A stretch of DNA of 64,000 bases from Pyropia yezoensis. Lineage: Eukaryota; Rhodophyta; Bangiophyceae; Bangiales; Bangiaceae. Positions within the stretch are counted from its first letter, which is position 1. Each line of letters begins with the position of its first letter. The stretch is from positions 27,380,894 to 27,444,893 of the forward strand of contig CM020618.1 of NCBI GenBank assembly GCA_009829735.1, written 5' to 3'. Under the pieces are notes generated by a model that saw nothing but the letters and a program-made list of their open reading frames with translations, was not told the DNA's origin and made no database searches. Shown in pieces: positions 14,434 to 55,738 of this stretch. The translations under genes and the position numbers were made by a program.

Positions 14434-14486
<53 letters not shown>

Positions 14487-17548: not shown

Positions 17549-18017
17549 TGTGGCAGTATTGACCCCCAGGTAGGGGGGCAACACGTGCCATGCAAGGGGC
17601 GGCAGGCCACTAGCCTGATCCGTTCCTCCCCCTGCATTTGGGTCCATATTCCCTAAGTTTGGGATAGTTAGCTTAGTAGTAAATCCAACTTGGATTTGAG
17701 GGTTTTCTGCATTTATCGTCTTGAATTTTCGTGTGGCCCGGTGGGCAGGTGCTGGGGTGGGAGATTCTGAGTGGCGAGATTCTGAGTGGACCCTGGGGGG
17801 ATAAGGGGAGGGACAGCGGGGCTTGGCCCTGCGTCCCCGTCCCGACCAAGAAACTGTTGGACCACACACCATCTTCTTGTTTGTCCGTGGGGGGTTTGCC
17901 CCACAACAGGGACAGAGTGTGTGCGACTTGCACTTCTTCCGGTTCCCCCGACACGGGAGGCAGCCCTGGCACACCGCCCCAACTTGGGTGCCGTGTGTGC
18001 TTGTGGTTTTTGCCACA
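17549..18017 (+). repeat. A1 5' LTR
   Basis: 469 bp, TGTGGC...GCCACA. It contains perfect odd-centred palindromes at 17681-17697 and 17978-17988. Its reverse strand is open through the whole LTR in one frame and would encode a Cys-rich stretch (CQGCLPC...CPCCG). Confidence 0.95.
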
Positions 18018-18019
18018 TT

Positions 18020-18037: not shown

Positions 18038-18136
18038 CAGAGGTAAACTTTACCTCCGGGTGCACCCGGGTGTAGGGGGCCCTCTGTCTCAGAGGAACGG
18101 TGGTCTTGGACCGTGTCATACGGATCGTCAGCCAAC

Positions 18137-20084
18137 ATGGCTAGCTCGGACCCCCCGTCGTCCGGGGAGTACACGGGTGACGCACGTACTTCAGTGCCTT
18201 TGAATACTGGTGAGACACAGGTGGGTTTACCTGGGGTCGCAGAGGGACTAGAGGTCCCTCAAGCCAGCAGGACTGGAAGTACGGGCGGGCAACAGGCCAC
18301 CCCGACTCAGTCGGGAGTTCACTTGGGTGACACTTCTGATGTGGGTGGGCCGAAGTCTGGCCACCGTGTGGTATACTCAACGGGAACGTCCCAAGGGGTG
18401 AGGACTGTCCCCGCGGGTTCCACTCGGGTTGGAGCCAACTTTGGCTTGGAGTCGTCGCCAACTAGGCTTTCGGAGGACGGTGGACCTCCGTTGGTCGGCG
18501 ATGGGCTCGCGCCCATGCCCCCGGTTGAGACCCCTGAGGAACGTGGTTACCCCTCAGGTGGACTCCCGGAGGCGGACCGAGACTCAACTGGAGTCGTCAA
18601 TCCACTCCTCGCGGAAACTGTCCGTCGGGAGGCGACCAATGTGTTGCGGCAGACTTTGCCGGACCTGGTGGTCACGATGACGAATACTATTCTGAATCAG
18701 ATTGTGGCGAGTTTGCCAGATGGCCTTAATGTCCAGACCGGATTGGGGCTTTCGAGCCCACAGGCGCAGGGGGAATCCCTCCCCACGCCTATCTCGGGTC
18801 GCCCCGAACTGGGGGCGACACCTGTGACTCCCAACGAGGGAGCCACACCATACGCGGTGGGGCGTACGCCCTTCACGGGGGAGTTCCCCTCGGAAACGCC
18901 GGCGGCTACACCAAGCTCGCCGTACCAGACTACAGGCACTGAGGGTGGACTTACCCCAGTGCCACAGCGGCTGTTCCCTCAACGTGAGGTGCCGCCCAAG
19001 ATTCAGGTAGCCAACCCGGTCTACCAGCGGATCTTTGACTGTGAGACCTACGCTCTCCACAACAAGTCGGTGGCGTATGGTCCTGACCAGGCCCGAGCTA
19101 TGGGCCGTGCCAAGAAGAATGCACTTCATTCTTTTGGGCACAGAGCGGAGTGGGATGGAACTCCCCCCCCTCCGTGTCTTTGAGTTCCTACGTCGTTTCA
19201 CAAAAGCCTGTGACGACAATGCCATAAGTGAAGGCATGGCTTTTTACATGCTACAGGAGTTTACGAAGGGCGACCTACGGACAGAACTTTTGTCCGTCAT
19301 GCCCAGCTCCTCAAGTGGAGGCGCTGGGGAGGTGACGTCCTATTTGGAGCTCGTCAACTGGTTGTTGAGAGCCATGGTTGATGAGGCAGCGTTGGCTTCT
19401 CAAGTCGAGGAGTTTACGCAAGCCCATCAGGAAGAGGCGGAGGACGAGTTGTCCTTTGCGGAGCGAGTCCGTAAGCTCAACAATCTTTGTGGGTTTCTTC
19501 ATCCACAAGCTGTGGTGAAGAGTCGGCTTGTGGAGGGACTCCATTGGTCAGTCCGGATGGAGACCCGGGAGCATAACACTGCCCGGGCGACCCTGGCCGA
19601 GTTGGCCAGGTTCGCCTATCGCAGAGGCGAGGCCTACCGCAAGTTGCGGGAGGAACAACGCCAGGAGCGTCAGGCCGAGTTGGCCAAGGAACGGGAGGAG
19701 GCGCGCCAGGCCAGAGAGTTGAGAGAGGCACGCCGAATCCGCAAGGAGAGGGTGGTAGCTGCCGTGGGAACTTCCCAGGGTACCTCTTCGTCTTCCCCAG
19801 TTGGGAAGACCCCTCCGGGAACTGACCATCGGTGTTGGAACTGCAACTCCGATGGACACTGGGCATATGACTGCCCCAAGTTGAGTAAACGCATCCAACA
19901 ACTTGTTAGGAATGCGAGTAAGAAGTCGGCTACGAGCGAAGTACGTTCACGCCGCGAGGGTGGGTCTCGACCGGTCGTCGCGGTCGCCACACCCTCGGCG
20001 GAGGAGGCGGACACGTCGTCCTCGGACTCGTCGTCTTCCTCCCCGCCCTCAGATTCGGACGCCAAGTCGGCGGGAAACGAATGA
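18137..20084 (+). CDS. gag: A1 Gag polyprotein, with internal +1 frame switch at a C8 run
   Basis: Starts at ATG 18137 in good context (CCAACATGG). The first frame (to 19183) is a Thr/Pro/Gly-rich N-terminal region ending in a helical capsid part (YALHNKSVAYGPDQARAMGR). At C8 (19163-19170) homology passes to the +1 frame, which continues PLRVFEFLRRFTKACDDN and matches family B Gag ALIFAFLRRFVKACND in one uninterrupted frame. A Glu/Arg-rich coiled-coil-like stretch follows, then the zinc knuckle CWNCNSDGHWAYDC (CX2CX4HX4C) and a Ser-rich tail. The same break is in A2, so it is not a sequencing error unique to this copy. Gag forms the particle and binds element RNA. The stop at 20082 overlaps the pol ATG (ATGA). 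Confidence 0.85.
20072..20078 (+). promoter_or_regulatory. Putative -1 frameshift heptamer GGGAAAC at A1 gag/pol
   Basis: The sequence reads G GGA AAC in the gag frame, two codons before the gag TGA, and pol is in the -1 frame and open from here. G-GGA-AAC fits the X-XXY-YYZ rule and is a heptamer used by some retroviruses. Family B has the same heptamer at the same place. Stop-restart on the overlapping ATGA is an alternative in A. Confidence 0.6.
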
Positions 20085-23000
20085 CCGTTGGGGCTGGTCG
20101 TCCGAAGCTCACAACGGCAGCCTCGGCCAAGTGGGCCAGGAGGACGAACCAACCGTGCCGGATACTGCGGCGACCTAAGGGAGTCCGCCCACCTCGGGTA
20201 GGACTCCCCAAGAACGTAAACCCACGTCGGGTCATCGCGGTGCTGACGGGTGAGAACTTCCAGGTGGCTGGACGGGTGCAACTTGCCCCCGGCCGTGCAT
20301 GCTGTACCCGTATCGTACTTGATACCGGGTCAGGAGCCTCCTTGATACGCAAGTCGCTATTACCAAAGGAGGTGAAGCTCCAACGCTGGAGGTCCAAAGC
20401 TGACCATATGATTGACATCAATGGTGGGGTACTTCCCATCGTTGGTGCCGTGACCCTACCAACTAGGTTGGGGACCCATGAGGTCGACGTGACCTATGGC
20501 GTAGTTGAGAATATATCGGTACCCCTGCTTCTGGGTACCCCTTATGTCGTAACACAAGTGCCTTTGATCTGTGGCCCCGAGTACTGGGTCAAGTTGATGA
20601 ATGGGGAGACTATCCCCATCCTTGGTAAGGGAAAGTCTGTGGCTCCTGTGACAGTCTCACAGTCGAAGCCTGTTTGCTCTGTGAGGGAAGGGTTTACTGC
20701 TACCCTGCGTTTAGCCCGCAAAGTCACGTTGCCCCCCAACTCGGTGGCGCACGTTGACGTTGTAACTGATTTTTCGGGGAACGGGTTGGTGCACCCTAAC
20801 CCCCGTCTTGCTCGCAAGCACCAAGTGCATGTTGCCCTTGGCACGATGGACTCCAAAGCCGGAGTCCCGTGGAGGATCCAGGTGATGAACCTGAGTCCGA
20901 CGCCCAAGTACTTCAAGTCGGGAGCCAAGTTCGGCTATATCGACCAACTTGAGGGACCGGTAGTAGCGGTCACCCTCAACGCGGGCGCAAGTAGCGACCC
21001 GAAGTCCGGAAAGGAGAAGCATCAAGCCAAGTCGGCCACCTCTCCTCGGCCCCATGTGAACATGGAGGGTGTTCCCCCCAGGTTGAGGGTTCAAGTTGAA
21101 CGCCTCTTGGACCAATATCACAAGCTGTGGGATGGTCAATTGGGACTCATGAGAGCCACCCAACACCGGATCGAGTTGATGCCCGGTGCACCCCCTATAC
21201 GCCAACAACCGTATAGGGGAGGACCTCGTTCAAGGGCCCTCGTTAAGGAGCAAGTTGCTCGCATGGAGGCCCTCGATGTGATCGAGGCCAGCAACGCCGA
21301 GTGGGCGAGTCCGGTGGTTATCGTCCCCAAAGTTGATGGGACCCCCCGGTTTTGCATCGACTACCGTAAGCTCAACGAGAGCACGGTGAAGGACAGTTAT
21401 CCCCTACCTAGGATGGATGACTGTCTGGACTCTCTGGGGGAGGCAAACGTGTTCTCTACCCTGGACTGTAACGCGGGGTACTGGCAAATTCCCATTGCCC
21501 CGGAGGACAGGCATAAAACTACCTTTACCTGTCACTGTGGTACCTACCAGTGCAAACGCCTACCGTTTGGTCTGTGTAACGCGCCGGCAACTTTCCAGCG
21601 CGCTATGGACATGATTCTGGCCGGAGTACGGTGGCAGATCTGTCTTGTGTACCTAGACGATATCATTGTGTTCTCCCGAAGTCCGGAGGAACACATTGGC
21701 CATCTTGGCCAGGTGTTCAAGCTACTTGCTGACGCCGGTGTGTCACTGAAGGCGAGTAAGTGCCACCTCTTCACTCAAGAGGTGGAGTACTTGGGACATG
21801 TTGTCCGTCCGGGGCGTCTCAGTGTTAACGAGAAGAACTTGAGGGCCATACGTAAGGCTCAGTACCCCCGGACCCAGACCCAGATGAGGAGCTTCCTCGG
21901 GATGTGTAACGTGTACCGACGTTTCACCAAGGGCTTCGCCAAGGTGGCGAAGCCGCTGAATGAGCTAGTGAGCTCAACGCTACCGAAGAACCTGCCTCCC
22001 CCAAGTCGGGTGGAGCAGGAATCCTTTGAGACTCTTCGGGACCTTCTGCTGAAGCCCCCCATCTTGGCAATTCCCAGGTTGGGAGGCCACTACATCCTGG
22101 ATGTGGACGCTAGCTACGACCAACTTGGTTGTGTGTTGCTTCAGCAGCAGCCGGACAAGGAGTACTTGCCGGTGGGATACTTCAGTAAGGGGCTGAACTC
22201 GGCCGAGAAGAACTACGGAGTCACCGAGTTGGAAGGACTCGCAGTGGTATGGGCGGTGACGTCACTTCGTCACTACCTAGAGGGTGAGAAGTTCCTCATC
22301 CGCTGTGACCACCGCGCGTTGCATTTCATCTTCAAGACGGACTGTACGAACACTCGTCTCAACCGGTGGAGGGTGCGACTGGCACCCTTCAACTTTGACA
22401 TTGAGTACCGACCTGGCAGGCAACATGCCCTTGCCGACGGCCTCTCTCGGGTACCCACCGAGGGGCTGGACACTAACCCAGTCGATGAGGACATCCCCAT
22501 CGTGGGGGTAGTCACGCGCTCGGGTCAGGCGTTGAACCCCGAGGCGCCAGGGAACAAGAAGTACTTGCCCCTGTCCCTGGACGAGGTGGTGAAGGCCCAG
22601 GCCGAGGATCCCTTCTGCAAGTCGCAGAGGGATACATTGGATACGGTGGTTGAGACGCGCTTCTTTCTGGGAGATGATGGCCTCCTCATGAGGAGGGGGG
22701 TATTCCAGGGGACTGAACAACTTGTCGTCCCCGCATCCCTCAAGGACAGTATCCTTGAGAGGGAGCACAACGCTCCCACGGGTGGACACCTGGGGTCTAG
22801 TAAACTGTACCAGACCCTGAGGACCAGGTACTACTGGCCGTCCATGGTGGTGGACATCTACAGTTGGGTGGCTGCCTTCACAAGTTGTGCACAGAACCGT
22901 CTGATGGAACGGCGGCCTAGTACGGCTATGCTATTGTTCCCGGCCAAGGAGCCCTTCGCCGCGTTGGCGATGGACATCCTTGGGCCACTGCCAGTGACCG

Positions 23001-24064
23001 AGGAAGGCAACCAGTACCTCCTGGTCATCTGTGACCGCTTCACGAAACTTACGCGAGCGATCCCACTGGCAGAGATCACGGCCATGTCGGTCGTGTCAGC
23101 CTTCCTAGATCACTGGGTTGCCGCGTATGGCATCCCAGATAGTACACTATCGGACAATGGACCGCAATTTGCGTCCGTACTGTTTCAGGGAGTGCTGGAT
23201 ATGTTGGGGGTTAAGGCAAACTATGCCACCCCCTACCACCCACAAACTACTGGGCAGGTGGAGCGCTTCAACAAAACTATTGTTAGGCAGCTGCGCCACT
23301 ATGTGAGTGAGCACGTGAAGACGTGGGACCAATATATTTCTATCCTTACTACTGCCTACAATTCGCAGGTTCACTCATCTACAGGGGAAGTACCCCTCGC
23401 TTTTGTGACCCCCCGTCGCGTGCGGTCTATTGCCGTGCGGCGGTCGCTCCCAACTTGGGAGGATGGTGGTAGTACGCCTACTCCTACTGAGAGTAAGGCG
23501 GAGTTCGCCGCTAGGCTTGAAAACCTCATCCCTAAAGTCAGGGCTGAGATGGACAAAGCACAAAAGCGCTATAAGCGTACCTTTGACAAAAAGGTGCGCA
23601 ATGCTAAGCATGTACCCGAGCAGGGTGACTGGGTGCTGGTACACTCGCACACCCCAACTGGGGGTAAGCTGGTATTCCAGACGAAGGGACCGTACCAGGT
23701 CCTTCGTACTGATGGGCGGCGCTTCACCATCGAAAGTGACGATGGGGTCCGCACAGTGAACGGACAGGACGTGGTCAAAGTTGCACCACCGCCTGCAGGC
23801 GACCCAGCTTGGGCACGTGCGTTGGAGTCGTGGCGCCTCCCCTCACTGCCTGCGGCCAAACAGGGCCCACAGGAGTACGTGTTCGATAAGTTCATCGACC
23901 ACGGATGGGATGAAGACACTGACCGCCTCATGTTGAGGGTGCGTTGGTTTGGCTACAAAGCCAAGGATGATACGTGGGAGTATGTGGAGGACCTTCCCGC
24001 TGAGAAGGTCCGGGCGTACTGTGCCCGGAATGAGATAGACCCTAACAGCCCTCCCTCAACGTGA
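20081..24064 (+). CDS. pol: A1 Pol polyprotein (PR-RT-RH-IN-chromodomain)
   Basis: 1327 aa from the ATG at 20081. Domains in order: aspartic protease (VLDTGSGAS, residue ~80); RT with FCIDYRKLN, LPFGLCNAPATFQRAM and the YLDD box (VYLDDIIVFS, ~523); RNase H (LDVDASYDQLG, ~673, and DHRALHFIFK); integrase with the HHCC finger (~897-936) and DDE residues in MDILGP, DNGPQFAS and GQVERFNK (~964, 1024, 1060); GPY/F motif (GPYQVL, ~1203); C-terminal chromodomain (VRWFGYKAKDDTWEYVEDL, ~1265-1323). The chromodomain places it among chromoviruses and likely guides integration to marked chromatin. One expected zinc-ligand Cys is Phe (TTC at 22877-22879, AAFTSC); A2 and B have Cys. Everything else looks intact. 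Confidence 0.95.
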   Translation: MTVGAGRPKLTTAASAKWARRTNQPCRILRRPKGVRPPRVGLPKNVNPRRVIAVLTGENFQVAGRVQLAPGRACCTRIVLDTGSGASLIRKSLLPKEVKLQRWRSKADHMIDINGGVLPIVGAVTLPTRLGTHEVDVTYGVVENISVPLLLGTPYVVTQVPLICGPEYWVKLMNGETIPILGKGKSVAPVTVSQSKPVCSVREGFTATLRLARKVTLPPNSVAHVDVVTDFSGNGLVHPNPRLARKHQVHVALGTMDSKAGVPWRIQVMNLSPTPKYFKSGAKFGYIDQLEGPVVAVTLNAGASSDPKSGKEKHQAKSATSPRPHVNMEGVPPRLRVQVERLLDQYHKLWDGQLGLMRATQHRIELMPGAPPIRQQPYRGGPRSRALVKEQVARMEALDVIEASNAEWASPVVIVPKVDGTPRFCIDYRKLNESTVKDSYPLPRMDDCLDSLGEANVFSTLDCNAGYWQIPIAPEDRHKTTFTCHCGTYQCKRLPFGLCNAPATFQRAMDMILAGVRWQICLVYLDDIIVFSRSPEEHIGHLGQVFKLLADAGVSLKASKCHLFTQEVEYLGHVVRPGRLSVNEKNLRAIRKAQYPRTQTQMRSFLGMCNVYRRFTKGFAKVAKPLNELVSSTLPKNLPPPSRVEQESFETLRDLLLKPPILAIPRLGGHYILDVDASYDQLGCVLLQQQPDKEYLPVGYFSKGLNSAEKNYGVTELEGLAVVWAVTSLRHYLEGEKFLIRCDHRALHFIFKTDCTNTRLNRWRVRLAPFNFDIEYRPGRQHALADGLSRVPTEGLDTNPVDEDIPIVGVVTRSGQALNPEAPGNKKYLPLSLDEVVKAQAEDPFCKSQRDTLDTVVETRFFLGDDGLLMRRGVFQGTEQLVVPASLKDSILEREHNAPTGGHLGSSKLYQTLRTRYYWPSMVVDIYSWVAAFTSCAQNRLMERRPSTAMLLFPAKEPFAALAMDILGPLPVTEEGNQYLLVICDRFTKLTRAIPLAEITAMSVVSAFLDHWVAAYGIPDSTLSDNGPQFASVLFQGVLDMLGVKANYATPYHPQTTGQVERFNKTIVRQLRHYVSEHVKTWDQYISILTTAYNSQVHSSTGEVPLAFVTPRRVRSIAVRRSLPTWEDGGSTPTPTESKAEFAARLENLIPKVRAEMDKAQKRYKRTFDKKVRNAKHVPEQGDWVLVHSHTPTGGKLVFQTKGPYQVLRTDGRRFTIESDDGVRTVNGQDVVKVAPPPAGDPAWARALESWRLPSLPAAKQGPQEYVFDKFIDHGWDEDTDRLMLRVRWFGYKAKDDTWEYVEDLPAEKVRAYCARNEIDPNSPPST

Positions 24065-24175: not shown

Positions 24176-26119
24176 CTAGGCACGCATGCTAGACTCTCCC
24201 ACTCCACGGCCCTCGCCCTCACGTGGAGGCGAGCGGCGAGACCCACGCCGATAACGGTCTCCACTCGTTGGAGGGGGCGGCGGCTCCAAGTCGGAACCGT
24301 CGCGCCCCTCACGGTCGCGCAAGTGGCGCCGACCGTGGCCACTCTTCTGCCTGGTCTTGCGCGCAAGTTTGCGACGCAGACGCTGGACAGACTCCGTCTC
24401 CGACGGGGTAGAGGACTCCGAGACGGAGTAAGACAACTCGTCTTCCGACACGGAGGGAGAGCGCCGAGAGTGTCGGCGACGACGGCGAGGAGGCGAGTAT
24501 GCCCGGCTCGCGCGACGTTTGCCACGCCCAAGTGGGGCTGGCTGGGGCATAATAGCCCCAATACGAGCCAACTCGGCTGTCATAAACTCCGCCACCGACT
24601 CGCAACTCGCGGTCCCTACTGCAGTACGAACGGGCTCCTCAAGTTGAGGAGTCTCGGAACTCTGTAGGGTTGCGGTCGACGCGGGCAACCAGGAAATGGT
24701 GCGCACCAACGTGGTGATCATCATCTCTGAGGTTAGAGGCGTGGGCGGCAACACCAACTTGGGGTATATCGTCAGGAGGGTGGCCCCCAAGTTGGGGGAC
24801 ACCGGAGTGGAAGACTCCACGGCCACGCTGATCGGGATGTTCCCGTGAGGTTGGAAAGGAACAGGGGGAAGCGGAGGGGCCCGCCGAGGTGGCGGTACCC
24901 GGGTGTAACTGCGACCCCGACTTGGGGCTCCCGCAGTGGGTTGAGTCATGTGGTCATCATAGGACGGCACGGCCATAACTATGGGCTTGTCCGGGGGTGG
25001 CGCAGTGTGGCGATCCACCCCCGGGGCATACGGGTAGTCCCCGATGCCCAACCCCTCTCGTAGGACCACACGGCCGTCGTGAAGTTCACGAGCGACCCAC
25101 ACGAACTGGCGAAGTGCGCCATCGTCCTTGGGCCCACGAGTGGGGCGGCGCAACTTGTGCTCAATGCTCTCCCACTCGATAAACTTATGGAGCCGGAGCA
25201 TCTCCTCAAGTAGAGTGAGTTGTCCTGATGAGCACCCCTCAGCAACTAGCTGAGGGGTGAGCTGTTCCAAACCCTGGATGAGCCGGAGGGGGAGATGCCA
25301 GAGCATCCCCCGCCGCTGAACACAGGACACCCAGGTCGACATGACCTCGAGGAGCCACTGGGTGGCCAACATGGCCCACACCAGGTGATCAGGGGCAGCC
25401 GTCAACATGACGGAGCCGAAGTGGTCAAGCAACCGGGGCAACAACGCCGGGAACCCGTAGGGGACCTCAACTTGAGGCCACCACTCGGGCTTCTTCGGAT
25501 AGTACTGCTCCTTACTGGCAGCAGACTGTTGAGGAAACTCAAGTTGAGCCGAGGTCACCAAGTAGGGACCTCGCCGGAAGTCTTTCTCCATCCGCACATC
25601 AAAGTGATGAGTGTGCGGATCGGCCTCGTGGAGGTACGGTGGGCGAGTTGCCACAGCGTCCCACGTGAAGGTCGGCAAGTCGCCGGGACCCGGGATAGTT
25701 CCCCCGCGGTCCACCATGGCCTTGGCACGCTGAACGTCCTCAACCTCCTCATCGTCCAGGAAGGCAAACTGGTCCGTCCTGAAGCCGGCAGGGAACCCGA
25801 CCCTATGGGGATACTTCTCCCGCAGGCGGTCCCATACCCGGCCCATCGCTGCGCCAAGTCGGCCACAGCGAAGAACAGTCAGCCCCTCCTCATAAAGAGG
25901 CCAAGCGGGGTAAAACCACCGCCCCAAGGCCTCACGCGGGACAACTTGTCCCGCCTCCGGGGGAGATCCCGCCGTCAACCCAAAGCCGGGTGACGCGGGA
26001 GTCACATCCCCCGGAGCGATGGCGGAGCCCCCGCCGGAAGTCCCGGCGGGTGCTGCACCGTAGGAGGTGTCCTCCATGCGCTCGTCAAGAGAGTCCGTCT
26101 CCACTCCCGGAGTCGCCAT
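24176..26119 (-). CDS. A1 antisense accessory gene (aORF-A), convergent with pol
   Basis: 647 aa on the strand opposite to gag-pol. The ATG at 26119 is in strong context (GAGCCATGG); the frame stays open further upstream but without an ATG. The stop is 111 bp from the pol stop, tail to tail. I recognise no named domain. The centre (about residues 190-320) is helical and hydrophobic-patterned (YYPK, VEVPYGF, TQWLLEVM, LLEEMLRLHKFIEW) and aligns with the family B antisense gene (YYPK, VEIPVGF, NHWLHEVL, FQAMIDFRRL). The last ~110 residues are Arg/Ser-rich (SPPRRRRRHSRRSP), like nuclear or RNA-binding tails. No signal peptide or membrane span is obvious, so it is not an env. A 21-nt perfect palindrome ends 2 nt before the ATG. 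The copy in A2 is also intact with few amino-acid changes. Confidence 0.75.
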   Translation of the reverse strand: MATPGVETDSLDERMEDTSYGAAPAGTSGGGSAIAPGDVTPASPGFGLTAGSPPEAGQVVPREALGRWFYPAWPLYEEGLTVLRCGRLGAAMGRVWDRLREKYPHRVGFPAGFRTDQFAFLDDEEVEDVQRAKAMVDRGGTIPGPGDLPTFTWDAVATRPPYLHEADPHTHHFDVRMEKDFRRGPYLVTSAQLEFPQQSAASKEQYYPKKPEWWPQVEVPYGFPALLPRLLDHFGSVMLTAAPDHLVWAMLATQWLLEVMSTWVSCVQRRGMLWHLPLRLIQGLEQLTPQLVAEGCSSGQLTLLEEMLRLHKFIEWESIEHKLRRPTRGPKDDGALRQFVWVARELHDGRVVLREGLGIGDYPYAPGVDRHTAPPPDKPIVMAVPSYDDHMTQPTAGAPSRGRSYTRVPPPRRAPPLPPVPFQPHGNIPISVAVESSTPVSPNLGATLLTIYPKLVLPPTPLTSEMMITTLVRTISWLPASTATLQSSETPQLEEPVRTAVGTASCESVAEFMTAELARIGAIMPQPAPLGRGKRRASRAYSPPRRRRRHSRRSPSVSEDELSYSVSESSTPSETESVQRLRRKLARKTRQKSGHGRRHLRDREGRDGSDLEPPPPPTSGDRYRRGSRRSPPREGEGRGVGESSMRA

Positions 26120-26457: not shown

Positions 26458-26926
26458 TGTGGCAGTATTGACCCCCAGGTAGGGGGGCAACACGTGCCAT
26501 GCAAGGGGCGGCAGGCCACTAGCCTGATCCGTTCCTCCCCCTGCATTTGGGTCCATATTCCCTAAGTTTGGGATAGTTAGCTTAGTAGTAAATCCAACTT
26601 GGATTTGAGGGTTTTCTGCATTTATCGTCTTGAATTTTCGTGTGGCCCGGTGGGCAGGTGCTGGGGTGGGAGATTCTGAGTGGCGAGATTCTGAGTGGAC
26701 CCTGGGGGGATAAGGGGAGGGACAGCGGGGCTTGGCCCTGCGTCCCCGTCCCGACCAAGAAACTGTTGGACCACACACCATCTTCTTGTTTGTCCGTGGG
26801 GGGTTTGCCCCACAACAGGGACAGAGTGTGTGCGACTTGCACTTCTTCCGGTTCCCCCGACACGGGAGGCAGCCCTGGCACACCGCCCCAACTTGGGTGC
26901 CGTGTGTGCTTGTGGTTTTTGCCACA
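26458..26926 (+). repeat. A1 3' LTR
   Basis: 469 bp, matching the 5' LTR along its length by eye, and followed by the target duplication CTCTC. Reading + strand from within this LTR, a frame opened at 26640 runs without stop into the KDZ middle piece, so LTR-initiated transcripts could be chimeric. Confidence 0.95.
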
Positions 26927-26931: not shown

Positions 26932-29740
26932 GGCTTATGGAGGAATATGCTGCAGTTTTTGACGTGCCGGCGGCAGGTGCTGGTACTGGGGGGGTGCGCG
27001 TGACGACATCCGGCGCCGCGTCTGATGTGCCGGCGGTCGGTCCTGGTATTGGGGACGTGGGCGTGACGACATCCGGCGTGCCAGCACGCACGTTTGCCAG
27101 CCGCGATAGCCCCGTCACGCACGGAATTCGTACGCGCGTTCAGCGCTTGCGCCTGGCACCACGCGTAAGCCGGCCTGTCCGTGCCGTCCGTCTCCTTGCC
27201 CCCCCATTTTCTCTTGTGTCGGGGCGCGCGGAGGGGAGTGGGTCCACTCACATCCAGCCTCCGTCGAGGCGTGTCGCGCGACTGTCGCCCAGCGCTGTTG
27301 TCCGCTATCCTGTGGCGGCCATCTCTCGGGCTACGTATGAGAAAGCCGGCGTTCGTGTCGCTTCGGCTGCGGGCGCTGCTCAAGGCGCTGGTGGTCGGTC
27401 TGGTCAGGACAGGTCAGGCGGGCGAACGGGAAAAGGTGGTCGCCCTGTGGACACAAGGCGCGACACGTGGAAAACTTTGGAAACGGGTATGATGCGCGCT
27501 GCTTGTAAGTCTGTCTTGGTCGTTGGGTTCGAGGCGTGCATGCGGAGCTTCTTCAACGAGACTCTGTCGGAGACGATCTACGACGACCTCTTCGAGTCGT
27601 TGCGTCAGCGCGCTGAGGATTTCTACCGCGGGGAGGTATGGTCCCTGAAGCACATCTACGGCACGCTGTCCTGGTTCATTGACGAACCCACCGACGGAGG
27701 AGGTAAGCAGCTGACGCCGTCGGTAGTGACGACGTGGCTCAACGACACTGGCATGATCTGCTGCTCTTGTGTGGGACGTTCTGTCCACGTGGCGCGCCAT
27801 CGGAGTTCTCCTGGCGAGGACGCACCATGCGTGCATGTCGTCACGTTCTTGCGCGCGGTGACGCGTCTCTGCAAGCGGATTGGGGTCTCTGTTGCCCTCT
27901 TCCGGTCCCGTGTGCCTGCACTGTACACTGGTGAAAACGAAGGGGGGTGCGCCACCGAGAGCATGTCGTCATCAAAGCCACATGCGGAGGATTGGGACGC
28001 GGAGGGCCCGATCCAGACAGTTCGGACTGGGCAGTCTGTCGTAGCCGCGGTGGTGTCTGGCCTCGGACCGTGCAAGGTGCTTGTACCTGTGCGATGCTCG
28101 CGCAAGTCAACGTCATGCGCGTTTTGTGACACTGCCGCTGGATTCTCGTGCGTTCATGCGCTGCGGTGCCGCAGCATTAGCCGCGCTGGCGGCACCGAAG
28201 ATTCTTCTTCCAAGAAGAAGCCCGGCGCAGATGAAGACGCGGCACGGTCGACCCTGCCAATTTCCATGTTTAACTGTCCATACACCGTGCGGGTGGATGT
28301 AGAAGTTTGTAAGCTGATGGAGGCGGGCGACGCTCTTGCTGTGCGGGCACCCTCAAGCTGCCCAACGTGCTCCAAGAGGAGGGATGACGCATCCCTCAAG
28401 ACGGATACTGGAGAGGTGATGTGCAGCAAGGGTTTCTGTCGGATGAAGGTTGAGTCATTCTTCTGCAGCAGCCCGGCGTGCGCGCGGAGGGTCTACCTCG
28501 ACGGAAGGAGTGTTGGAGTTGTCATCTTATCGACATCAACAGCCTCGACGGTCGCAATCATGCGAGATATGGCACGTGAGGTGGCCACGAGTGGATCCAC
28601 ATTTGGGGCGTGCTACCGGCGCTGGTTTAACGCCTTCATGGATCTGTGTGACTCGGACTTGTACTCGAAAATGAAAACCGTGTCGACGCGGTCGCGACAG
28701 ACAGTATCGAGCGTTTTCTTTTTGGCGCTGCGGCTGATGTGCAAGGAGCCGCCTCTGTGGGCCTTCAAGTGCTCTACCTGCCAAGACAAGTCCGGGCGCT
28801 TTCGAGTCATCACGGCGGATGGCATTTGGGCGGGGTACCTGAACCGCATGGCCAGCGAAAAGGACGTGATCCCCACGGAGGTGTGCGCGTCTTTGAAGTC
28901 CAAGGTGGACGCAGCCTCCTTGCACCCCTCCGAGTGGGTGCGCCGGTATGTGCGCATGGCTCTGAAGCAGCCATCCAAACCTGTGGTCATCAAGGCCGGG
29001 CAGCTCAGCTCTGCTCTGCGTGCATTGGCGTTCTTGTGCCCAGCTGCTCTGCCTGGTGTAAAGGAGACGGCGTCGGCGTGCCAATCAACAGGTCTTCTCC
29101 GGCTGCGCGCGCTGTTGATGTCATTCTGGCAGCTGTCGCACTCGTGCTTGTCATTGTGTGACGGTATCCTTGTGTTTATCCGAAAGCTTCTTGGCCCTCG
29201 GTGTTGTTTGAACGACCAGCAAAAGTTGCAGCATCAAACGACTATGGACCAGATTCAAGACTGGAAGGCTGCTGTTTTGCGACGCGAAGACCCAGATTAT
29301 CCTGTTGGGGGTGGGCCGGGGCTAGCAGCACCTGGTGTTCCTGCCGTGGGCGGTGCAGCCGGCGGCGTCGGCGCAGCTCCTGTCCTTGGTGCGGCCGCCG
29401 CAGCCGGTGCAGCTGGCGGCGGAGTTGAACCTGCCGGCGAGGGGGTAGCTGCCGGCGGAGTTGTAGCTGCCGGTCATGGTGCAGCTGCGGGAGGTGGTGG
29501 AATCGGTGGCGGAGGTGCAGCCGCCGCAGCAGATGGAGGAGCTGCTGGCGGCGGCGGCGATGGAGCTCCCGGCGGCGGCGCACACGGTGGCAATCCCGGC
29601 GGCGGTGCACCCCGCGGCAATCCCGGCGGCGGTGCACCCAGCGGCAATCCCGGTGGCGGTGCACCCGGCGGCAATCGTGCAGTTGATGGTGGAGGAGCAG
29701 GTGCTGGTGGCAGGGACACTGGCGCCGAAGATGGTGTTGG
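26932..29740 (+). CDS. KDZ-like transposase, N-terminal/middle piece (cysteine-cluster region)
   Basis: About 936 codons, open from the A1 junction to the A2 junction. After a Thr/Ser/Arg-rich leader comes a conserved part from about 27480: FEACMRSFFNETLSETIYDD, then cysteine clusters CSRKSTSCAFC and FSCVHALRC (about 28097-28170), CPTCSKR, CSKGFCRMKVESFFCSSPAC and the short motif YLDGRSVGV (about 28360-28520). Such CxC clusters accompany KDZ transposases and probably bind zinc and DNA. The piece ends in a Gly/Ala linker with four 8-residue repeats (GGGAPxGNP-like, about 29574-29676) and continues in frame into the piece at 55739. Splitting by A2 should abolish function. Family assignment rests on this Cys pattern plus the C-terminal piece. 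Confidence 0.6.
29574..29676 (+). repeat. 24-bp coding minisatellite (about four copies) in the KDZ linker
   Basis: About four imperfect 24-nt units encode GGGAP-x-GNP repeats within the Gly/Ala linker of the KDZ-like transposase. Confidence 0.75.
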
Positions 29741-30209
29741 TGTGGCAAAAACCACAAGCACACACGGCACCCAAGTTGGGGCGGTGTGCCAGGGCTGCCT
29801 CCCGTGTCGGGGGAACCGGAAGAAGTGCAAGTCGCACACACTCTGTCCCTGTTGTGGGGCAAACCCCCCACGGACAAACAAGAAGATGGTGTGTGGTCCA
29901 ACAGTTTCTTGGTCGGGACGGGGACGCAGGGCCAAGCCCCGCTGTCCCTCCCCTTATCCCCCCAGGGTCCACTCAGAATCTCGCCACTCAGAATCTCCCA
30001 CCCCAGCACCTGCCCACCGGGCCACACGAAAATTCAAGACGATAAATGCAGAAAACCCTCAAATCCAAGTTGAATTTACTACTAAGCTAACTATCCCAAA
30101 CTTAGGGAATATGGACCCAAATGCAGGGGGAGGAACGGATCAGGCTAGTGGCCTGCCGCCCCTTGCATGGCACGTGTTGCCCCCCTACCTGGGGGTCAAT
30201 ACTGCCACA
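29741..30209 (-). repeat. A2 3' LTR
   Basis: 469 bp reverse complement of the family A LTR. The palindrome arm near 30070 carries a private change (GAATTT where the other LTRs have GGATTT). It is followed by the reversed polypurine tract at 30210-30222. Confidence 0.95.
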
Positions 30210-30222
30210 CTCCCCTCTCCTC
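30210..30222 (-). promoter_or_regulatory. A2 polypurine tract
   Basis: On the minus strand it reads the same 13-purine tract as in A1, directly against the 3' LTR. Confidence 0.8.
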
Positions 30223-30547
30223 AGTTCCGACCGACCCGGTCGGCCCTGTGAGGGGGTGCGTAAACGCACGTCTCGGCGTTGGGGGCGCGACTTGCTGTCC
30301 CCCATCGAGTACGTAACACGGATGTGGAGGCGGTCACGTTGACCGCCCCTCTCCTCAAGCTTGCCCACTCGGCAGCTTGCTCTCCTCAGTTCACACTTCA
30401 CCATCACCACCACCTCCCCTTCACCTTCCACTGGGCCGCCCCACGCTGGGGAGGCCACCCGTATACCCACGATCCGAGTCCCCCTCAACTCGAGGCGGGT
30501 CTCGTGCTGCGATAGCCAGAGCGTCTCTCCCCAACTTGGGGAGAGCC

Positions 30548-32491
30548 ATGGCGACTCCGGGAGTGGAGACGGACTCTCTTGACGAGCGCATGGAGGACAC
30601 CTCCTACGGTGCAGCACCCGCCGGGACTTCCGGCGGGGGCTCCGCCATCGCTCCGGGGGATGGGACTCCCGCGTCACCCGGCTTTGGGTTGACGGCGGGA
30701 TCTCCCCCGGAGGCGGGACAAGTTGTCCCGCGTGAGGCCTTGGGGCGGTGGTTTTACCCCGCTTGGCCTCTTTATGAGGAGGGGCTGACTGTTCTTCGCT
30801 GTGGCCGACTTGGCGCAGCGATGGGCCGGGTATGGGACCGCCTGCGGGAGAAGTATCCCCATAGGGTCGGGTTCCCTGCCGGCTTCAGGACGGACCAGTT
30901 TGCCTTCCTGAACGACGAGGAGGTTGAAGACGTCCAACGTGCCAAGGCCATGGTGGACCGCGGGGGAACTATCCCGGGTCCCGGCGACTTGCCGACCTTC
31001 ACGTGGGACGCTGTGGCAACTCGCCCACCGTACCTCCACGAGGCCGATCCGCACACTCATCACTTTGATGTGCGGATGGAGAAAGACTTCCGGCGAGGTC
31101 CCTACTTGGTGACCTCGGCTCAACTTGAGTTTCCTCAACAGTCTGCTGCCAGTAAGGAGCAGTACTATCCGAAGAAGCCCGAGTGGTGGCCTCAAGTTGA
31201 GGTCCCCTACGGGTTCCCGGCGTTGTTGCCCCGGTTGCTTGACCACTTCGGCTCCGTCATGTTGACGGCTGCCCCTGATCACCTGGTGTGGGCCATGTTG
31301 GCCACCCAGTGGCTCCTCGAGGTCATGTCGACCTGGGTGTCCTGTGTTCAGCGGCGGGGGATGCTCTGGCATCTCCCCCTCCGGCTCATCCAGGGTTTGG
31401 AACAGCTCACCCCTCAGCTAGTTGCTGAGGGGTGCTCATCAGGACAACTCACTCTACTTGAGGAGATGCTCCGGCTCCATAAGTTTATCGAGTGGGAGAG
31501 CATTGAGCACAAGTTGCGCCGCCCCACTCGTGGGCCCAAGGACGATGGCGCACTTCGCCAGTTCGTGTGGGTCGCTCGTGAACTTCACGACGGCCGTGTG
31601 GTCCTACGAGAGGGGTTGGGCATCGGGGACTACCCGTATGCCCCGGGGGTGGATCGCCACACTGCGCCACCCCCGGACAAGCCCATAGTTATGGCCGTGC
31701 CGTCCTATGATGACCACATGACTCAACCCACTGCGGGAGCCCCAAGTCGGGGTCGCAGTTACACCCGGGTACCGCCACCTCGGCGGGCCCCTCCGCTTCC
31801 CCCTGTTCCTTTCCAACCTCACGGGAACATCCCGATCAGCGTGGCCGTGGAGTCTTCCACCCCGGTGTCCCCCATCTTGGGGGCCACCCTCCTGACGGTA
31901 TACCCCAAGTTGGTGTTGCCGCCCACGCCTCTAACCTCAGAGATGATGATCACCACGTTGGTGCGCACCATTTCCTGGTTGCCCGCGTCGACCGCAACCC
32001 TACAGAGTTCCGAGACTCCTCAACTTGAGGAGCCCGTTCGTACTGCAGTAGGGACCGCGAGTTGCGAGTCGGTGGCGGAGTTTATGACAGCCGAGTTGGC
32101 TCGTATTGGGGCTATTATGCCCCAGCCAGCCCCACTTGGGCGTGGCAAACGTCGCGCGAGCCGGGCATACTCGCCTCCTCGCCGTCGTCGCCGACACTCT
32201 CGGCGCTCTCCCTCCGTGTCGGAAGACGAGTTGTCTTACTCCGTCTCGGAGTCCTCTACCCCGTCGGAGACGGAGTCTGTCCAGCGTCTGCGTCGCAAAC
32301 TTGCGCGCAAGACCAGGCAGAAGAGTGGCCACGGTCGGCGCCACTTGCGCGACCGTGAGGGGCGCGACGGTTCCGACTTGGAGCCGCCGCCCCCTCCAAC
32401 GAGTGGAGACCGTTATCGGCGTGGGTCTCGCCGCTCGCCTCCACGTGAGGGCGAGGGCCGTGGAGTGGGAGAGTCTAGCATGCGTGCCTAG
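30548..32491 (+). CDS. A2 antisense accessory gene (aORF-A), intact
   Basis: 647 aa, the counterpart of the A1 antisense gene, with the same ATG context, the same palindrome upstream and the same stop. Only a few residues differ from A1: GDGTPAS for GDVTPAS, LNDEEV for LDDEEV, PILGATLLTVYP for PNLGATLLTIYP. It stays fully open although pol of this copy has been cut by another element. It points away from the A2 3' LTR, so an antisense promoter in or near that LTR is expected (inference). Confidence 0.75.
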   Translation: MATPGVETDSLDERMEDTSYGAAPAGTSGGGSAIAPGDGTPASPGFGLTAGSPPEAGQVVPREALGRWFYPAWPLYEEGLTVLRCGRLGAAMGRVWDRLREKYPHRVGFPAGFRTDQFAFLNDEEVEDVQRAKAMVDRGGTIPGPGDLPTFTWDAVATRPPYLHEADPHTHHFDVRMEKDFRRGPYLVTSAQLEFPQQSAASKEQYYPKKPEWWPQVEVPYGFPALLPRLLDHFGSVMLTAAPDHLVWAMLATQWLLEVMSTWVSCVQRRGMLWHLPLRLIQGLEQLTPQLVAEGCSSGQLTLLEEMLRLHKFIEWESIEHKLRRPTRGPKDDGALRQFVWVARELHDGRVVLREGLGIGDYPYAPGVDRHTAPPPDKPIVMAVPSYDDHMTQPTAGAPSRGRSYTRVPPPRRAPPLPPVPFQPHGNIPISVAVESSTPVSPILGATLLTVYPKLVLPPTPLTSEMMITTLVRTISWLPASTATLQSSETPQLEEPVRTAVGTASCESVAEFMTAELARIGAIMPQPAPLGRGKRRASRAYSPPRRRRRHSRRSPSVSEDELSYSVSESSTPSETESVQRLRRKLARKTRQKSGHGRRHLRDREGRDGSDLEPPPPPTSGDRYRRGSRRSPPREGEGRGVGESSMRA

Positions 32492-32602
32492 TTGGCAGCT
32501 GCCTTTGTTGTGAGAGTGTGAGGGTTAGGGCTGTAGTTAAAAGCCACTCTGCGTACCACTTCGACTTGAAGCACTCTCTTGGCACTGTTGCTCGGCCTTC
32601 CC

Positions 32603-33433
32603 TCACGTTGAGGGAGGGCTGTTAGGGTCTATCTCATTCCGGGCACAGTACGCCCGGACCTTCTCAGCGGGAAGGTCCTCCACATACTCCCACGTATCAT
32701 CCTTGGCTTTGTAGCCAAACCAACGCACCCTCAACATGAGGCGGTCAGTGTCTTCATCCCATCCGTGGTCGATGAACTTATCGAACACGTACTCCTGTGG
32801 GCCCTGTTTGGCCGCAGGCAGTGAGGGGAGGCGCCACGACTCCAACGCACGTGCCCAAGCTGGGTCGCCTGCAGGCGGTGGTGCAACTTTGACCACGTCC
32901 TGTCCGTTCACTGTGCGGACCCCATCGTCACTTTCGATGGTGAAGCGCCGCCCATCAGTACGAAGGACCTGGTACGGTCCCTTCGTCTGGAATACCAGCT
33001 TACCCCCAGTTGGGGTGTGCGAGTGTACCAGCACCCAGTCACCCTGCTCGGGTACATGCTTAGCATTGCGCACCTTTTTGTCAAAGGTACGCTTATAGCG
33101 CTTTTGTGCTTTGTCCATCTCAGCCCTGACTTTAGGGATGAGGTTTTCAAGCCTAGCGGCGAACTCCGCCTTACTCTCAGTAGGAGTAGGCGTACTACCA
33201 CCATCCTCCCAAGTTGGGAGCGACCGCCGCACGGCAATAGACCGCACGCGACGGGGGGTCACAAAAGCGAGGGGTACTTCCCCTGTAGATGAGTGAACCT
33301 GCGAATTGTAGGCAGTAGTAAGGATAGAAATATATTGGTCCCACGTCTTCACGTGCTCACTCACATAGTGGCGCAGCTGCCTAACAATAGTTTTGTTGAA
33401 GCGCTCCACCTGCCCATTAGTTTGTGGGTGGTA
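32603..33433 (-). pseudogene. pol: A2 Pol, 3' fragment (integrase end and chromodomain)
   Basis: Covers the C-terminal part of pol from YHPQTNGQVERFNK, which holds the integrase catalytic Glu, through GPYQVL and the chromodomain (VRWFGYKAKDDTWEY) to the stop. It begins exactly at the TA where the TIR element inserted. The missing 5' part is at 50049-53201. Apart from the insertion the fragment is open and nearly identical to A1. Confidence 0.9.
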
Positions 33434-34374
33434 TGGTACGTTGCACAAAAAAGATACATGGAGGTTTCTCTCGGCTCGGGCCCGGGCTCCCCATCGGCCG
33501 CGGCGGGGCCCACGGTGGCCATGCTGACAGAAGGATCACATAGCGCCATGCGAACTCATGAGGTACTTGGACGGTGTACCGCTTTCAGGGACACCCTGGG
33601 TGGACCGGCTGCTGTCGAACCTGAAATGGGGCCATCCTTTTCGCATTGATTTGCCCGGCTCGGGGGTGGGTCCGGGCCCATGTGCTAACTGAGGCTTGGA
33701 AGAGGGGAAGTCGCTTTTGGGGAGGAGCCCGGGGAAGGCTGGAGGCCATTGATTTGAGGACATTTTTCCGTGTGCGGGTCCCTGTTTCTAAGAACGCTGT
33801 TCTTGGGGGAAATGTTCCATGTCATGGGCTCGTTTGATTGGTCCACGAAGAAGCTTGGTCCTCATGTGCCCCTTGCCAGTTTAGGCATCTCTGGCAGGGC
33901 CCCCCACGCCTCTTGATGAAGAAGCCTCTCCCCCCCCTTCCCCTCCTGGACCCCTCTCCTGGACTAGACGCCTTGGGGAGACAAAAATCCACCCACCCCG
34001 CGCCCGCCGCGGCGGTCCCCAACTCCGGGACGTCGGCGGGGCACCTTCCGTGCACAAAGGGCGGCCGAGCGGGCGCAGGGCCCAGAGGGATATTCGTCCG
34101 CACGCGCGAACGTGCGCGACCAGTGGGGGCGATGGAGACCGTTCCCCGCGCATCTGTGGCATGGGGGTGATGATGCGTCGTATTAGAGGAGAGGCGGGCA
34201 GCACGAAGGCCCTTGGTGCTTTTTTGTCCGTAAAGCAGACTGTGTCTCTCCCGAGACCCCCCCAAAAAAAGCTCCAGCAACACCCTGCTCCAGCTTTATC
34301 TCACATCCCCTCTTCACACCCGCACCAAGCCGAGTGCTCAGCCAAGGCACACAGCTCCTTCTATCCCGGGAGAG
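33434..34374. other. Left arm of the TIR element (non-coding)
   Basis: TIR at 33434-33463, then mixed sequence without a supported gene. The last five bases (GAGAG, 34370-34374) are the left target duplication of retrotransposon B. Confidence 0.7.
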
Positions 34375-34947
34375 TGTAGCATCCCTGGCCCCGACTTGGC
34401 GCCGACCCGGGACTGCAACCAGAGGGCACCAGGTGCCAGAACACGCCCGCCGTGTGGCGATGGTTGGCGGCCGTGGCCCGTGCCCGGCACTGGGATGCGG
34501 TGGACTACGCTATCCACACGCGAGAGAGGGATTTCTGATGTGTTTTTGCATATTTGTGAGGGACTTGATTTGAGAGAATTTGAGTGTGAGATTAGTGAGT
34601 GGGAATAGAATTAGTAGTGATAGTGGCCCCCGACCTGACGAGGTTAGACTCGGGTCGGGGCCACTCGGGGTTATGGGGGGGGCTACCGGGCCAACGTGCC
34701 GGGGTTCCCCCAGATGCACGTTAAGAGGGACAGCGAGGCGCCCTCGGCCCGCGCCCTCAGGGAAAAAGACAACTGCGCGTTTGCTTTCCTCTTCCCCGTG
34801 TGCACTACCGTGCGTATCTGTTTGCCCTGCAAGCAGGCACGTGAGGCAACAGGCATACCATTCTCGTAGTTCCCCTTTCTGCGTTACCTGTCCCTTTCCC
34901 CCGAGGGATATTGACACGTGTCTGAGAGGATCGAGTTTTATACCACA
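34375..34947 (+). repeat. B 5' LTR
   Basis: 573 bp, TGTAGC...ACCACA, unrelated to the family A LTR except for the last bases and the PBS beyond it. Confidence 0.95.
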
Positions 34948-34951
34948 TATT

Positions 34952-39854: not shown

Positions 39855-40354
39855 NNNNNNNNNNNNNNNNNNNNNNNNNNNNNNNNNNNNNNNNNNNNNN
39901 NNNNNNNNNNNNNNNNNNNNNNNNNNNNNNNNNNNNNNNNNNNNNNNNNNNNNNNNNNNNNNNNNNNNNNNNNNNNNNNNNNNNNNNNNNNNNNNNNNNN
40001 NNNNNNNNNNNNNNNNNNNNNNNNNNNNNNNNNNNNNNNNNNNNNNNNNNNNNNNNNNNNNNNNNNNNNNNNNNNNNNNNNNNNNNNNNNNNNNNNNNNN
40101 NNNNNNNNNNNNNNNNNNNNNNNNNNNNNNNNNNNNNNNNNNNNNNNNNNNNNNNNNNNNNNNNNNNNNNNNNNNNNNNNNNNNNNNNNNNNNNNNNNNN
40201 NNNNNNNNNNNNNNNNNNNNNNNNNNNNNNNNNNNNNNNNNNNNNNNNNNNNNNNNNNNNNNNNNNNNNNNNNNNNNNNNNNNNNNNNNNNNNNNNNNNN
40301 NNNNNNNNNNNNNNNNNNNNNNNNNNNNNNNNNNNNNNNNNNNNNNNNNNNNNN
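39855..40354. other. Assembly gap, 500 N
   Basis: Exactly 500 N, a conventional placeholder. The bases on its two sides are not collinear: left is integrase, right is mid-gag of the same element. Confidence 0.99.
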
Positions 40355-41667
40355 TTGCGTCCTATGGGGCGGGGCTCCAAGACCGGTGACCGGAGCAGCC
40401 GTAGGCGTCGGCGTCGTCGCCGCCGCTCTAGCACCAGCGAGACCAGTTCCTCCAGCTCTGAGGAGGGATATGACTGGGATGCATCTCCCGGTCCTACCCG
40501 GCGCAGGCTAGTCGAGTTCGACTTCCCTGCCCACCAAGTGGGAGATGCCACCCTGAACAAGTCACGTATTGGGGTAACTACCGGCTGGAGAACCAAGACC
40601 AAGGTTACACCCGGAAGATGGCCAAGAAGATGGCATCCCTGAACCGGCGAATGCAACCGAGCTTTGGGGGGCATCCTAAGTTTTCCGGGAAGAGACCGGC
40701 GCTTATCTTTGCCTTCCTGCGCCGGTTTGTCAAGGCATGCAATGACAACGATGTGTCCGAGGGCAAGGCTCTCTATCTCCTGGTTAACTTCATGACCGGA
40801 GAAGCGGAACAGCGGTTTGCACAGGTTCTACCAGACTCTGCCGGGCACATTGTTGGACGTACCGTCGCGAGTTATCCGGAGGCGGTCAACTGGCTCCTGT
40901 CCAACTACGCAGACGCGGACTCCCTGCGTAAGGCAGTCGGTAGGCTGAACCGGGCAACCATGGAGAGACAAGAGACTCCAGAGGCGTTCGCCCGTCGTGT
41001 CCGGGAGATGAGCGATGCTTGTGGCAACGTTTACCCTGAGGACAGGCTCAAGATATTCTTCTCGGAGGGGCTTCCTGAATATCTTCAAGTGGATGCGGAG
41101 AACTACAACCAGGAACATCAAGAACATACCTTCCAGCAGTTGATGGCCTATACCCAGGGCAAGCACCGGCAAGCCAAGGCCCTCCAGGCTCCTATGGTAT
41201 CAACTCCCAAGCCGTTGTCGCGAGTTCGTCCCGGACCCGACAAGTATAAGGGAGGTGATAACCCTGTACCGGTACTCGCAGTTGGCGAGGCCTCACCCAT
41301 GGAGTCAAGGGACAAGTGGGGCGGCTTCGTTTCTAAGGAGCAACCTTCCCTGGTCGCCCCCAAGCAGATCAGGAACCAGCGGTTCCGGTCTTGCTGGCTG
41401 TGCCAGAAGGAGGATCACATGTCCTACCAGTGCCCGACCATTCCCGAGGATCTCCAGGAGAAACTCAAGCGTCAAGGACTGGTGTTTGCAAAGGCGGTCA
41501 ACTGGGCTGACCGGCGGGCACCCTCCAAGATGGACAAGGCACAGGTACATGCCATCCGAGTGGCAACCTTACAGAGCATCACGGAGGCTCTGGCAAGGGA
41601 AGCTCCTACGGACTTTGACCTGGAGACCGAAACCTCTAAGGACTCCTCGGAGCCGGGAAACGAGTAG
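40355..41667 (+). pseudogene. gag: B Gag, duplicated fragment with frame-breaking indels
   Basis: Lacks the N-terminus. Two deletions close to the contig edge shift the frame; from 40618 on it reads the normal capsid and CCHC region to the stop at 41667. The errors are most simply low-quality contig-end sequence. Confidence 0.8.
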
Positions 41668-50046: not shown

Positions 50047-50048
50047 TA

Positions 50049-55145: not shown

Positions 55146-55244
55146 GTTGGCTGACGATCCGTATGACACGGTCCAAGACCACCGTTCCTCTGAGACAGAG
55201 GGCCCCCTACACCCGGGTGCACCCGGAGGTAAAGTTTACCTCTG

Positions 55245-55262
55245 TCCCCTGCTGCTCCACCA
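55245..55262 (-). promoter_or_regulatory. A2 primer-binding site
   Basis: Reverse complement of the same 18-nt PBS as in A1, two bases inside the LTR. Confidence 0.75.
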
Positions 55263-55264
55263 AA

Positions 55265-55733: not shown

Positions 55734-55738
55734 GTTGG

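Follow-up and report, generated by a model that had tools for sequence, protein, structure and literature searches.

A conserved antisense gene convergent with pol in a group of Ty3/gypsy elements of the red alga Pyropia yezoensis

When a retrotransposon carries a long open reading frame (ORF) on the strand opposite to gag and pol, is that frame a real gene, and one that the element needs? Antisense accessory genes of long terminal repeat (LTR) elements are known as scattered cases from plants and fungi, with no agreed function. The question is posed here by a stretch of 64,000 nucleotides (the window, G000:C1:27380894-27444893) from the 107.5-Mb assembly of Pyropia yezoensis (nori), in which Ty3/gypsy elements of two families, A (copies A1 and A2) and B, carry, between pol and the 3' LTR, an antisense frame of 704-705 codons that converges on pol. 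We consider it almost certain that this antisense ORF (aORF) is a conserved protein-coding gene, and we find that purifying, frame-specific selection retains its protein in all four comparisons made, within family A and between related elements of families B, D and E/F. The preliminary description of the window had reported an antisense gene of about 650-705 codons close to the pol stop in A1, A2 and B; it is indeed present, the stop codons of pol and the aORF lying 111 bp apart in A1 and in A2 and 145 bp apart in B.

The antisense frame and the selection that retains it

The three aORFs of the window are placed as follows.

24176..26119, minus strand: aORF of A1, 647 codons from the first ATG, in a frame that is open up to 26350
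30377..32491, plus strand: aORF of A2, 704 codons counted from a TTG
45901..48018, minus strand: aORF of B, 705 codons

The longer A1 frame runs over 24176-26290, with the first ATG at 26119. In the 57 codons 5' of the ATG of the A aORF there are 7 synonymous and 4 nonsynonymous variants and, small as these numbers are, the apparent constraint suggests that the true start may lie upstream.

Chance ORFs are long in this GC-rich window (e.g., 1025 codons at 13506-16583), so that the length of an ORF is by itself no proof of a gene. The evidence comes instead from the comparison of the two families. A comparison of A and B in all six frames gives 44.3 bits for antisense against antisense and at most 24.3 bits for any other combination. 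The two proteins align by BLAST with 23% identity over 166 residues (E 9e-9, as a single comparison), a score that was equalled by none of 1000 shuffled sequences, none of 5000 shuffled so as to keep local composition, and none of 1000 in separate runs; the alignment thus beats shuffled sequence, one of the checks that the preliminary description had named.

Selection was measured within family A on 20 copies which, like the sets of 63 copies each from A and B considered below, were picked by their aORF-protein score and are therefore biased towards intact ORFs; the ratio of nonsynonymous to synonymous variants (pN/pS) sets the observed counts against an expectation from the A copies' own mutation spectrum. 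Variants found in at least two of the 20 copies comprise 36 synonymous and 9 nonsynonymous changes in the aORF (pN/pS 0.11), as compared with 83 and 28 in pol (0.14). When all variants are counted, the aORF has 83 synonymous and 59 nonsynonymous changes (pN/pS 0.31) and pol stands at 0.43, whereas singletons alone give 0.46 and 0.66, respectively, a rise that would follow if many of the changes seen in one copy date from after insertion. When the aORF region is read in its other frames, the shared variants yield values of 1.66-4.55, save in the sense frame in codon register with the aORF (0.24). By base calls, 19 of the 20 aORFs are open, versus 7 of 15 complete pol frames (insertions were left unchecked in both counts).

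The comparisons between related elements extend this picture to longer divergences. Element B and its relative B2 (L036), which are 93% identical in pol over 393 residues and 90.5% in the aORF, show a ratio of nonsynonymous to synonymous substitution rates (dN/dS) of 0.22 in the aORF and of 0.11 in pol (397 codons), and within aORF residues 150-300 the ratio drops to 0.012, with 21 synonymous changes and one nonsynonymous. Two copies of family D, with frames of 995 and 1010 codons and 84% DNA identity, give 0.207, and families E and F, whose proteins are 70% identical, give 0.211 at a synonymous divergence (dS) of 0.93. Constraint on the aORF is thus near that on pol in A, and weaker than that on pol and still far below 1 in B and B2. 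The four frames out of codon register range from 1.06 to 2.30 in these three pairs. In each case the codon-registered sense frame has the higher ratio: 0.30 vs 0.22 for B and B2, 0.356 vs 0.207 for D, 0.373 vs 0.211 for E and F, and, within A, 0.24 vs 0.11 for shared and 0.48 vs 0.31 for all variants.

Two simpler accounts are ruled out by these results. An accidental ORF in GC-rich DNA does not explain similarity that is confined to one pair of frames, scores beyond those of shuffled sequences and selection at the level of codons. An env-like gene on the sense strand is equally excluded, since the codon-registered sense ratio is always above the antisense one and stops abound on the sense strand: counted over the ORF with 200-bp flanks, there are 31, 20 and 18 in its three frames in A, and B has 20, 14 and 9. 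No env-like additional ORF in the sense orientation is present 3' of pol in either element.

A protein family with a shared core and variable tails

The regions of the aORF proteins that matter for their comparison are these.

25136..25654, minus strand: core of the A aORF, residues 213-385 of its protein (P0001) in the alignment with B and about 261-427 in that with D, E and F
46885..47421, minus strand: core of the B aORF, residues 200-378
24389..24532, minus strand: Arg/Ser-rich basic tail of the A aORF, from translation and motif scan

The motif pairs that the preliminary description had aligned between A and B (YYPK; VEVPYGF with VEIPVGF; EEMLRLHKF with FQAMIDFRRL) all hold, with the exception of TQWLLEVM and NHWLHEVL, which are out of register; in both BLAST and MAFFT alignments, NHWLHEVL is paired with STWVSCVQ. 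A core of about 110-150 residues unites the D, E and F proteins with that of A, and in an alignment of the core at least six of seven sequences have in common a Gly-Pro block, one Ala, one Trp, an acidic residue and a row of Leu positions. Outside the core the proteins diverge and, as had been noted for A and B, their flanks differ: the tails are Arg/Ser-rich in A and D according to the motif scan, and in E and F by eye, and Pro/Ala-rich in B. Past its Arg/Ser stretch, the D aORF continues into a second, strongly conserved segment at the C terminus, with dN/dS 0.15, that has no aligned counterpart in A or B.

The link between A and the other families is best seen with profiles. Against a profile of D, E, F and P0010 (a 419-residue protein, 51% identical to D, that was retrieved by protein search), A gives an hhalign P of 1.8e-7 over 151 columns, as compared with 0.086 for a reversed control; A against B gives P 3.9e-5. 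None of 1000 shuffles equals the BLAST score of A with D, P0010, E or F. Other searches recover these relationships in part. Among 796 ORF translations searched by phmmer at its defaults, the A query misses B, the B query matches a broken A copy (E 2.7e-5), and with D as the query A is missed while an unrelated ORF of the window is matched (E 0.0033); a D profile places the broken A copy first outside the D loci, at an E of only 0.0055. The D pair against the A pair reaches an hhalign P of 0.002, and D against B 0.43.

With respect to known proteins, no Pfam family matches A, B, B2, D or P0010 at E 10 or better, and E and F have sub-threshold matches at E 0.3, in searches in which the HMMER filters drop most matches above about E 0.1. 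In the Protein Data Bank (PDB), nothing matches A or D at E 1 or better; B has three matches at E 0.045-0.16, which lie in its Pro/Ala-rich region and are therefore taken as composition. Protein searches, in which the 8000 candidates with most shared words were scored, revealed no described relative beyond hypothetical proteins of Pyropia, and scans of viral contigs with both aORF proteins revealed none. Two of the Pyropia entries at NCBI, I4F81_010186 and I4F81_004114, are D-family aORFs; the gene model of I4F81_004114 omits an internal Arg/Gly-rich stretch (D locus G000:C1:34415951-34418935, L044). The statement of the preliminary description that it knew of no such protein therefore fits the Pfam, PDB (A, B and D), protein and literature searches, and the aORF proteins of A, B, D, E and F appear, from sequence comparison, to form a new protein family.

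Distribution of the gene among families and copies

Genome searches with integrase and chromodomain queries returned at least 150 matches each, and 13 regions 3' of pol were examined: four A copies, B2, one region each of families C and D, and six regions of chromodomain families (L029-L034). B2, D and the second D copy were thus picked by integrase match, and E and F by aORF similarity. The aORF lies 3' of pol and antisense in B2, D, E and F, the LTRs having been located for A1, A2 and B, and the arrangement was seen in one region each of D, E and F. Family D has a 995-codon antisense frame with its stop 156 bp from that of pol and an Arg/Ser-rich stretch; in E, the aORF opposes a gypsy pol with the stops 41 bp apart; in F, it has the same orientation opposite a gypsy pol that is interrupted. 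In family C, no antisense frame after pol exceeds 231 codons in the two copies read (99.7% identical there), and in C as in L029-L034 the first 450 residues of the aORF proteins match nothing at better than E 0.56. The L029-L034 regions are single and stop about 3 kb beyond pol, which makes absence there weak evidence.

Among the best-scoring copies, 56 of 63 in A and 61 of 63 in B have no stop in the aORF, and three of the four A copies that were selected by their integrase carry a recognisable aORF. The identical LTRs of A1 and the 63 scored A copies, which stand at 98-100%, indicate that A was amplified recently. A genome search with P0010 gave 96 matches at E 1 or better among the best 100 of 1116 candidates, including six D copies. 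The matches listed further include 39 that are E/F-like (at least 330 residues, about 26-31% identity), 31 of them without a stop, of which the orientation was read for two, namely E and F; there are also many short core matches (residues about 274-384, E 1e-4 to 0.06), several of which sit in frames of 722-724 codons like that of A.

A branch with support 100/100 in the unrooted integrase tree sets A, B, B2, C, D, E and F apart from two chromodomain families with frames of 1186 and 1255 codons. Families D, E and F group together at 87/85 (D and E at 91/94 without F), below the level starred in the tree, and the order of A, C, B and D/E/F is otherwise unresolved; a grouping of the aORF-bearing rows A, B, B2, D and E is not rejected (p-AU 0.155). 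Thus, most of the sampled families of one Ty3/gypsy group have the aORF, a distribution that could reflect either a single gain with loss in family C or a later gain. The claim of the preliminary description that the gene is retained is upheld by the purifying selection in the four comparisons, where dN/dS is not near 1, together with the homologous convergent genes in families outside the window and the aORFs found in further A and B copies.

Several results weigh against the mechanism proposed below. Direct comparison of B with D/E/F gives an hhalign P of 0.027, indistinguishable from the 0.056 of a reversed control, and by BLAST 107, 427, 175 and 170 of 1000 shuffles equal the scores of B with D, P0010, E and F, respectively; being no better than controls, this comparison means that B joins the family through A. 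An earlier hhalign run of the A/B alignment against D alone gave a probability of 0.7%, and the link between A and D/E/F became strong only with the inclusion of E, F and P0010. Family B has only a weak basic tail, with one RRRR run in the motif scan. Of the four integrase-picked A copies, one has a wholly open aORF, one has a broken frame, one retains about 404 residues and one is cut by a gap and other sequence. Finally, since two near-identical copies of family C lack the aORF, at least one member of the clade can do without the gene.

The remaining features of the window belong to the elements themselves.

17549..18017, plus strand: 5' LTR of A1, 469 bp, TG...CA, identical to the 3' LTR, target-site duplication CTCTC
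18113..20084, plus strand: gag of A1, in two overlapping frames, 18113-19183 and 19035-20084
20081..24064, plus strand: pol of A1, with reverse transcriptase, RNase H and integrase, and weak protease and chromodomain-like matches
26458..26926, plus strand: 3' LTR of A1, where the antisense promoter would be expected
29740..33436, minus strand: 3' part of A2, an inverted copy of A with 3' LTR, aORF and the end of pol
50047..55734, minus strand: 5' part of A2, separated from the 3' part by a nested insertion
34375..34947, plus strand: 5' LTR of B, 573 bp, target-site duplication GAGAG
35157..41667, plus strand: gag and the gag-pol tandem duplication of B, in which 35811-39854 equals 40561-44604
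41796..45755, plus strand: complete pol of B, 45% identical to that of A
48209..48781, plus strand: 3' LTR of B, the partner in its 573-bp LTR pair

A1 spans 17549-26926, with identical LTRs of 469 bp and a 5-bp target-site duplication, and A2 is an inverted A copy that is split by an insert (33437-50046) holding element B. Pol of A and B is 45% identical over 1292 residues, and gag 29% over 282. The label 'chromovirus' of the preliminary description needs qualification, since it depends on a chromodomain-like tail of pol that scores 19.5 bits in A and 20.4 in B, under the Pfam cut-off of 25.1. The two overlapping gag frames are seen in A1 (18113-20084) as well as in A2 (53198-55169), the longest having 364 codons; a single gag frame of 664 codons is found in 6 of 10 other A copies with the primer-site string, among 20 examined, so that copies with intact gag exist. 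This primer-binding-site string, TTTGGTGGAGCAGCAGGGGA, follows the 5' LTR in both A (18018-18040) and B (34948-34972); despite it, the LTRs of A and B share only a 15-base match, which is at chance level. The gag-pol duplication of B covers 4.75 kb (35811-44604), with units 99.9% identical (no mismatches and three gaps in 4247 columns), and is either real or an assembly artefact. The segments 33437-34374 and 48782-50046, which together interrupt A2 and are interrupted by B, have terminal inverted repeats (GTTGC..., by eye) and a 5-bp duplication, and are likely to be a non-autonomous DNA transposon. Within 14001-16000 the GC content is 0.86, and ORFs of about 1000 codons overlap on both strands within 13506-16583. 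Repeats make up 48% of the P. yezoensis genome, with LTR elements predominant (PMC7423979); the main text of that paper contains neither the word 'gypsy' nor the word 'antisense'. With regard to red-algal elements with such a gene, searches of the open-licence literature in PubMed Central (PMC) turned up no report (subscription papers and Repbase lie outside this search).

Known antisense genes and candidate roles

One parallel is HBZ of HTLV-1, an antisense-encoded bZIP protein that is expressed from a promoter in the 3' LTR and acts as a nuclear regulator. The nori aORF proteins differ in that they have no Pfam match to bZIP or another domain. In layout they are closest to the antisense ORFs of the aORF-3R group, which comprises Grande gene23, RIRE2, Retand ORF4 and PvRetro13 (Vicient and Casacuberta, 2020, PMC7264820); these share the place and strand of the nori gene and are kept in most copies of a plant family, with function given as unknown in the account of that paper (PMC7264820). 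The named elements are from land plants (Retand being a non-chromovirus), whereas those described here are red-algal with a chromodomain-like tail of pol, and the comparison with them is by layout and Pfam, not by sequence. In Grande, the antisense gene is driven by a promoter of its own and its product is nuclear (PMC7264820). TRP28 (Transposase_28) of Retand is likewise a lineage-wide antisense protein and a suspected DNA binder (Vicient, 2025, PMC11963269); unlike it, the nori proteins lack a match to PF04195 at E 10 or better in the 10 aORF proteins scanned, so that membership in that family is not supported. Outside plants, the antisense gypsy gene brtn of Boty in Botrytis has been grouped with aORF-3R (Zhao et al., 2011, via PMC7264820 and PMC8365987), and in an animal host, Mytilus, the 3' LTR of a Steamer-like element promotes an antisense RNA that contains a translatable ORF (PMC10974842); both are likened to the nori aORF by description, not by sequence. 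Thus, the layout, with the antisense ORF placed after pol and before the 3' LTR, is of a known kind, and the protein family appears to be new.

By analogy with the nuclear Grande product and its own promoter, with TRP28 of Retand and with the retroviral antisense genes, we propose tentatively, and with somewhat less than even confidence in the scheme as a whole, that the aORF mRNA is self-promoted and encodes a nuclear, nucleic-acid-binding accessory protein acting on the expression of the element. The gene would be transcribed from a promoter of its own in or just inside the 3' LTR, apart from the gag-pol RNA, and the protein would combine a conserved, presumably folded N-terminal/central domain with a variable basic tail. 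Conceivably, the tail directs the protein to the nucleus and binds nucleic acid or chromatin, and the protein might act in trans on the life cycle of the element, either by controlling expression or by protecting it from silencing. An antisense LTR promoter and a regulatory or silencing-related factor had been put forward as a hypothesis in the preliminary description. RNA silencing is a plausible opponent, given a Piwi-domain match at G000:C3:5004889-5005788, the sole Argonaute in that genome search. A more specific version, that the aORF encodes a trans-acting counter-silencing or expression-control factor, a non-retroviral counterpart of HBZ that is independent of TRP28 and old (about 25% identity between families, with a constrained core), seems to us doubtful as a complete account.

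Of the alternatives, an active anti-silencing factor that blocks small-RNA or chromatin silencing of the host, for instance by binding the double-stranded RNA (dsRNA) formed by sense and antisense transcripts, is unlikely and yet the foremost. It would fit the Argonaute/Piwi match, the basic, RS-rich tails and the dsRNA that convergent transcription would itself be expected to yield, whereas no silencing-suppressor or dsRNA-binding domain was found at Pfam E 10 or better in A, B, B2, D or P0010. A structural or pre-integration role, whether within the particle or in bringing the cDNA into the nucleus, as for retroviral accessory proteins, would agree with the pol-like constraint on the A aORF and with a basic tail that could bind RNA; it is slightly less probable still, since it needs an antisense mRNA, yet gag and pol suffice in family C. 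Self-restraint, in which the protein limits the copy number or expression of its own element, is how HBZ and Ty1 p22 act in their own systems, and both the long-term retention across families and a separate antisense control would suit such feedback. We nevertheless regard it as improbable, because selection among competing copies would hardly maintain it and A was amplified recently.

A host gene captured once by the ancestor of the lineage, with a role now unrelated to transposition, would explain why Pfam and PDB gave no relative among retroelements or viruses; the protein searches, however, gave no host relative, the matches being D-family aORFs of Pyropia and other contigs, so that capture appears quite improbable. 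Least credible of all is that the antisense RNA alone matters, through dsRNA regulation, and that the ORF is incidental: high GC does yield long chance ORFs in the window, but four comparisons with frame-specific ratios well under 1, and protein homology in one frame pair only, contradict the idea. The accessory protein made from an antisense mRNA thus remains our preferred, if tentative, reading.

For annotators, the present findings carry a warning, as D-family aORF copies already reside at NCBI under the name of hypothetical proteins. More generally, one antisense gene can be traced over five families or subfamilies in a single genome, at synonymous divergences that range from variation within a family to a dS of 0.93, which makes it possible to answer for antisense ORFs the question whether they are real and needed genes; here, the gene is real and retained. 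The retention of the aORF protein suggests that the elements need it for some function, and nori, with its three chromosomes and recent insertions, offers a tractable system for investigating the role of antisense genes.

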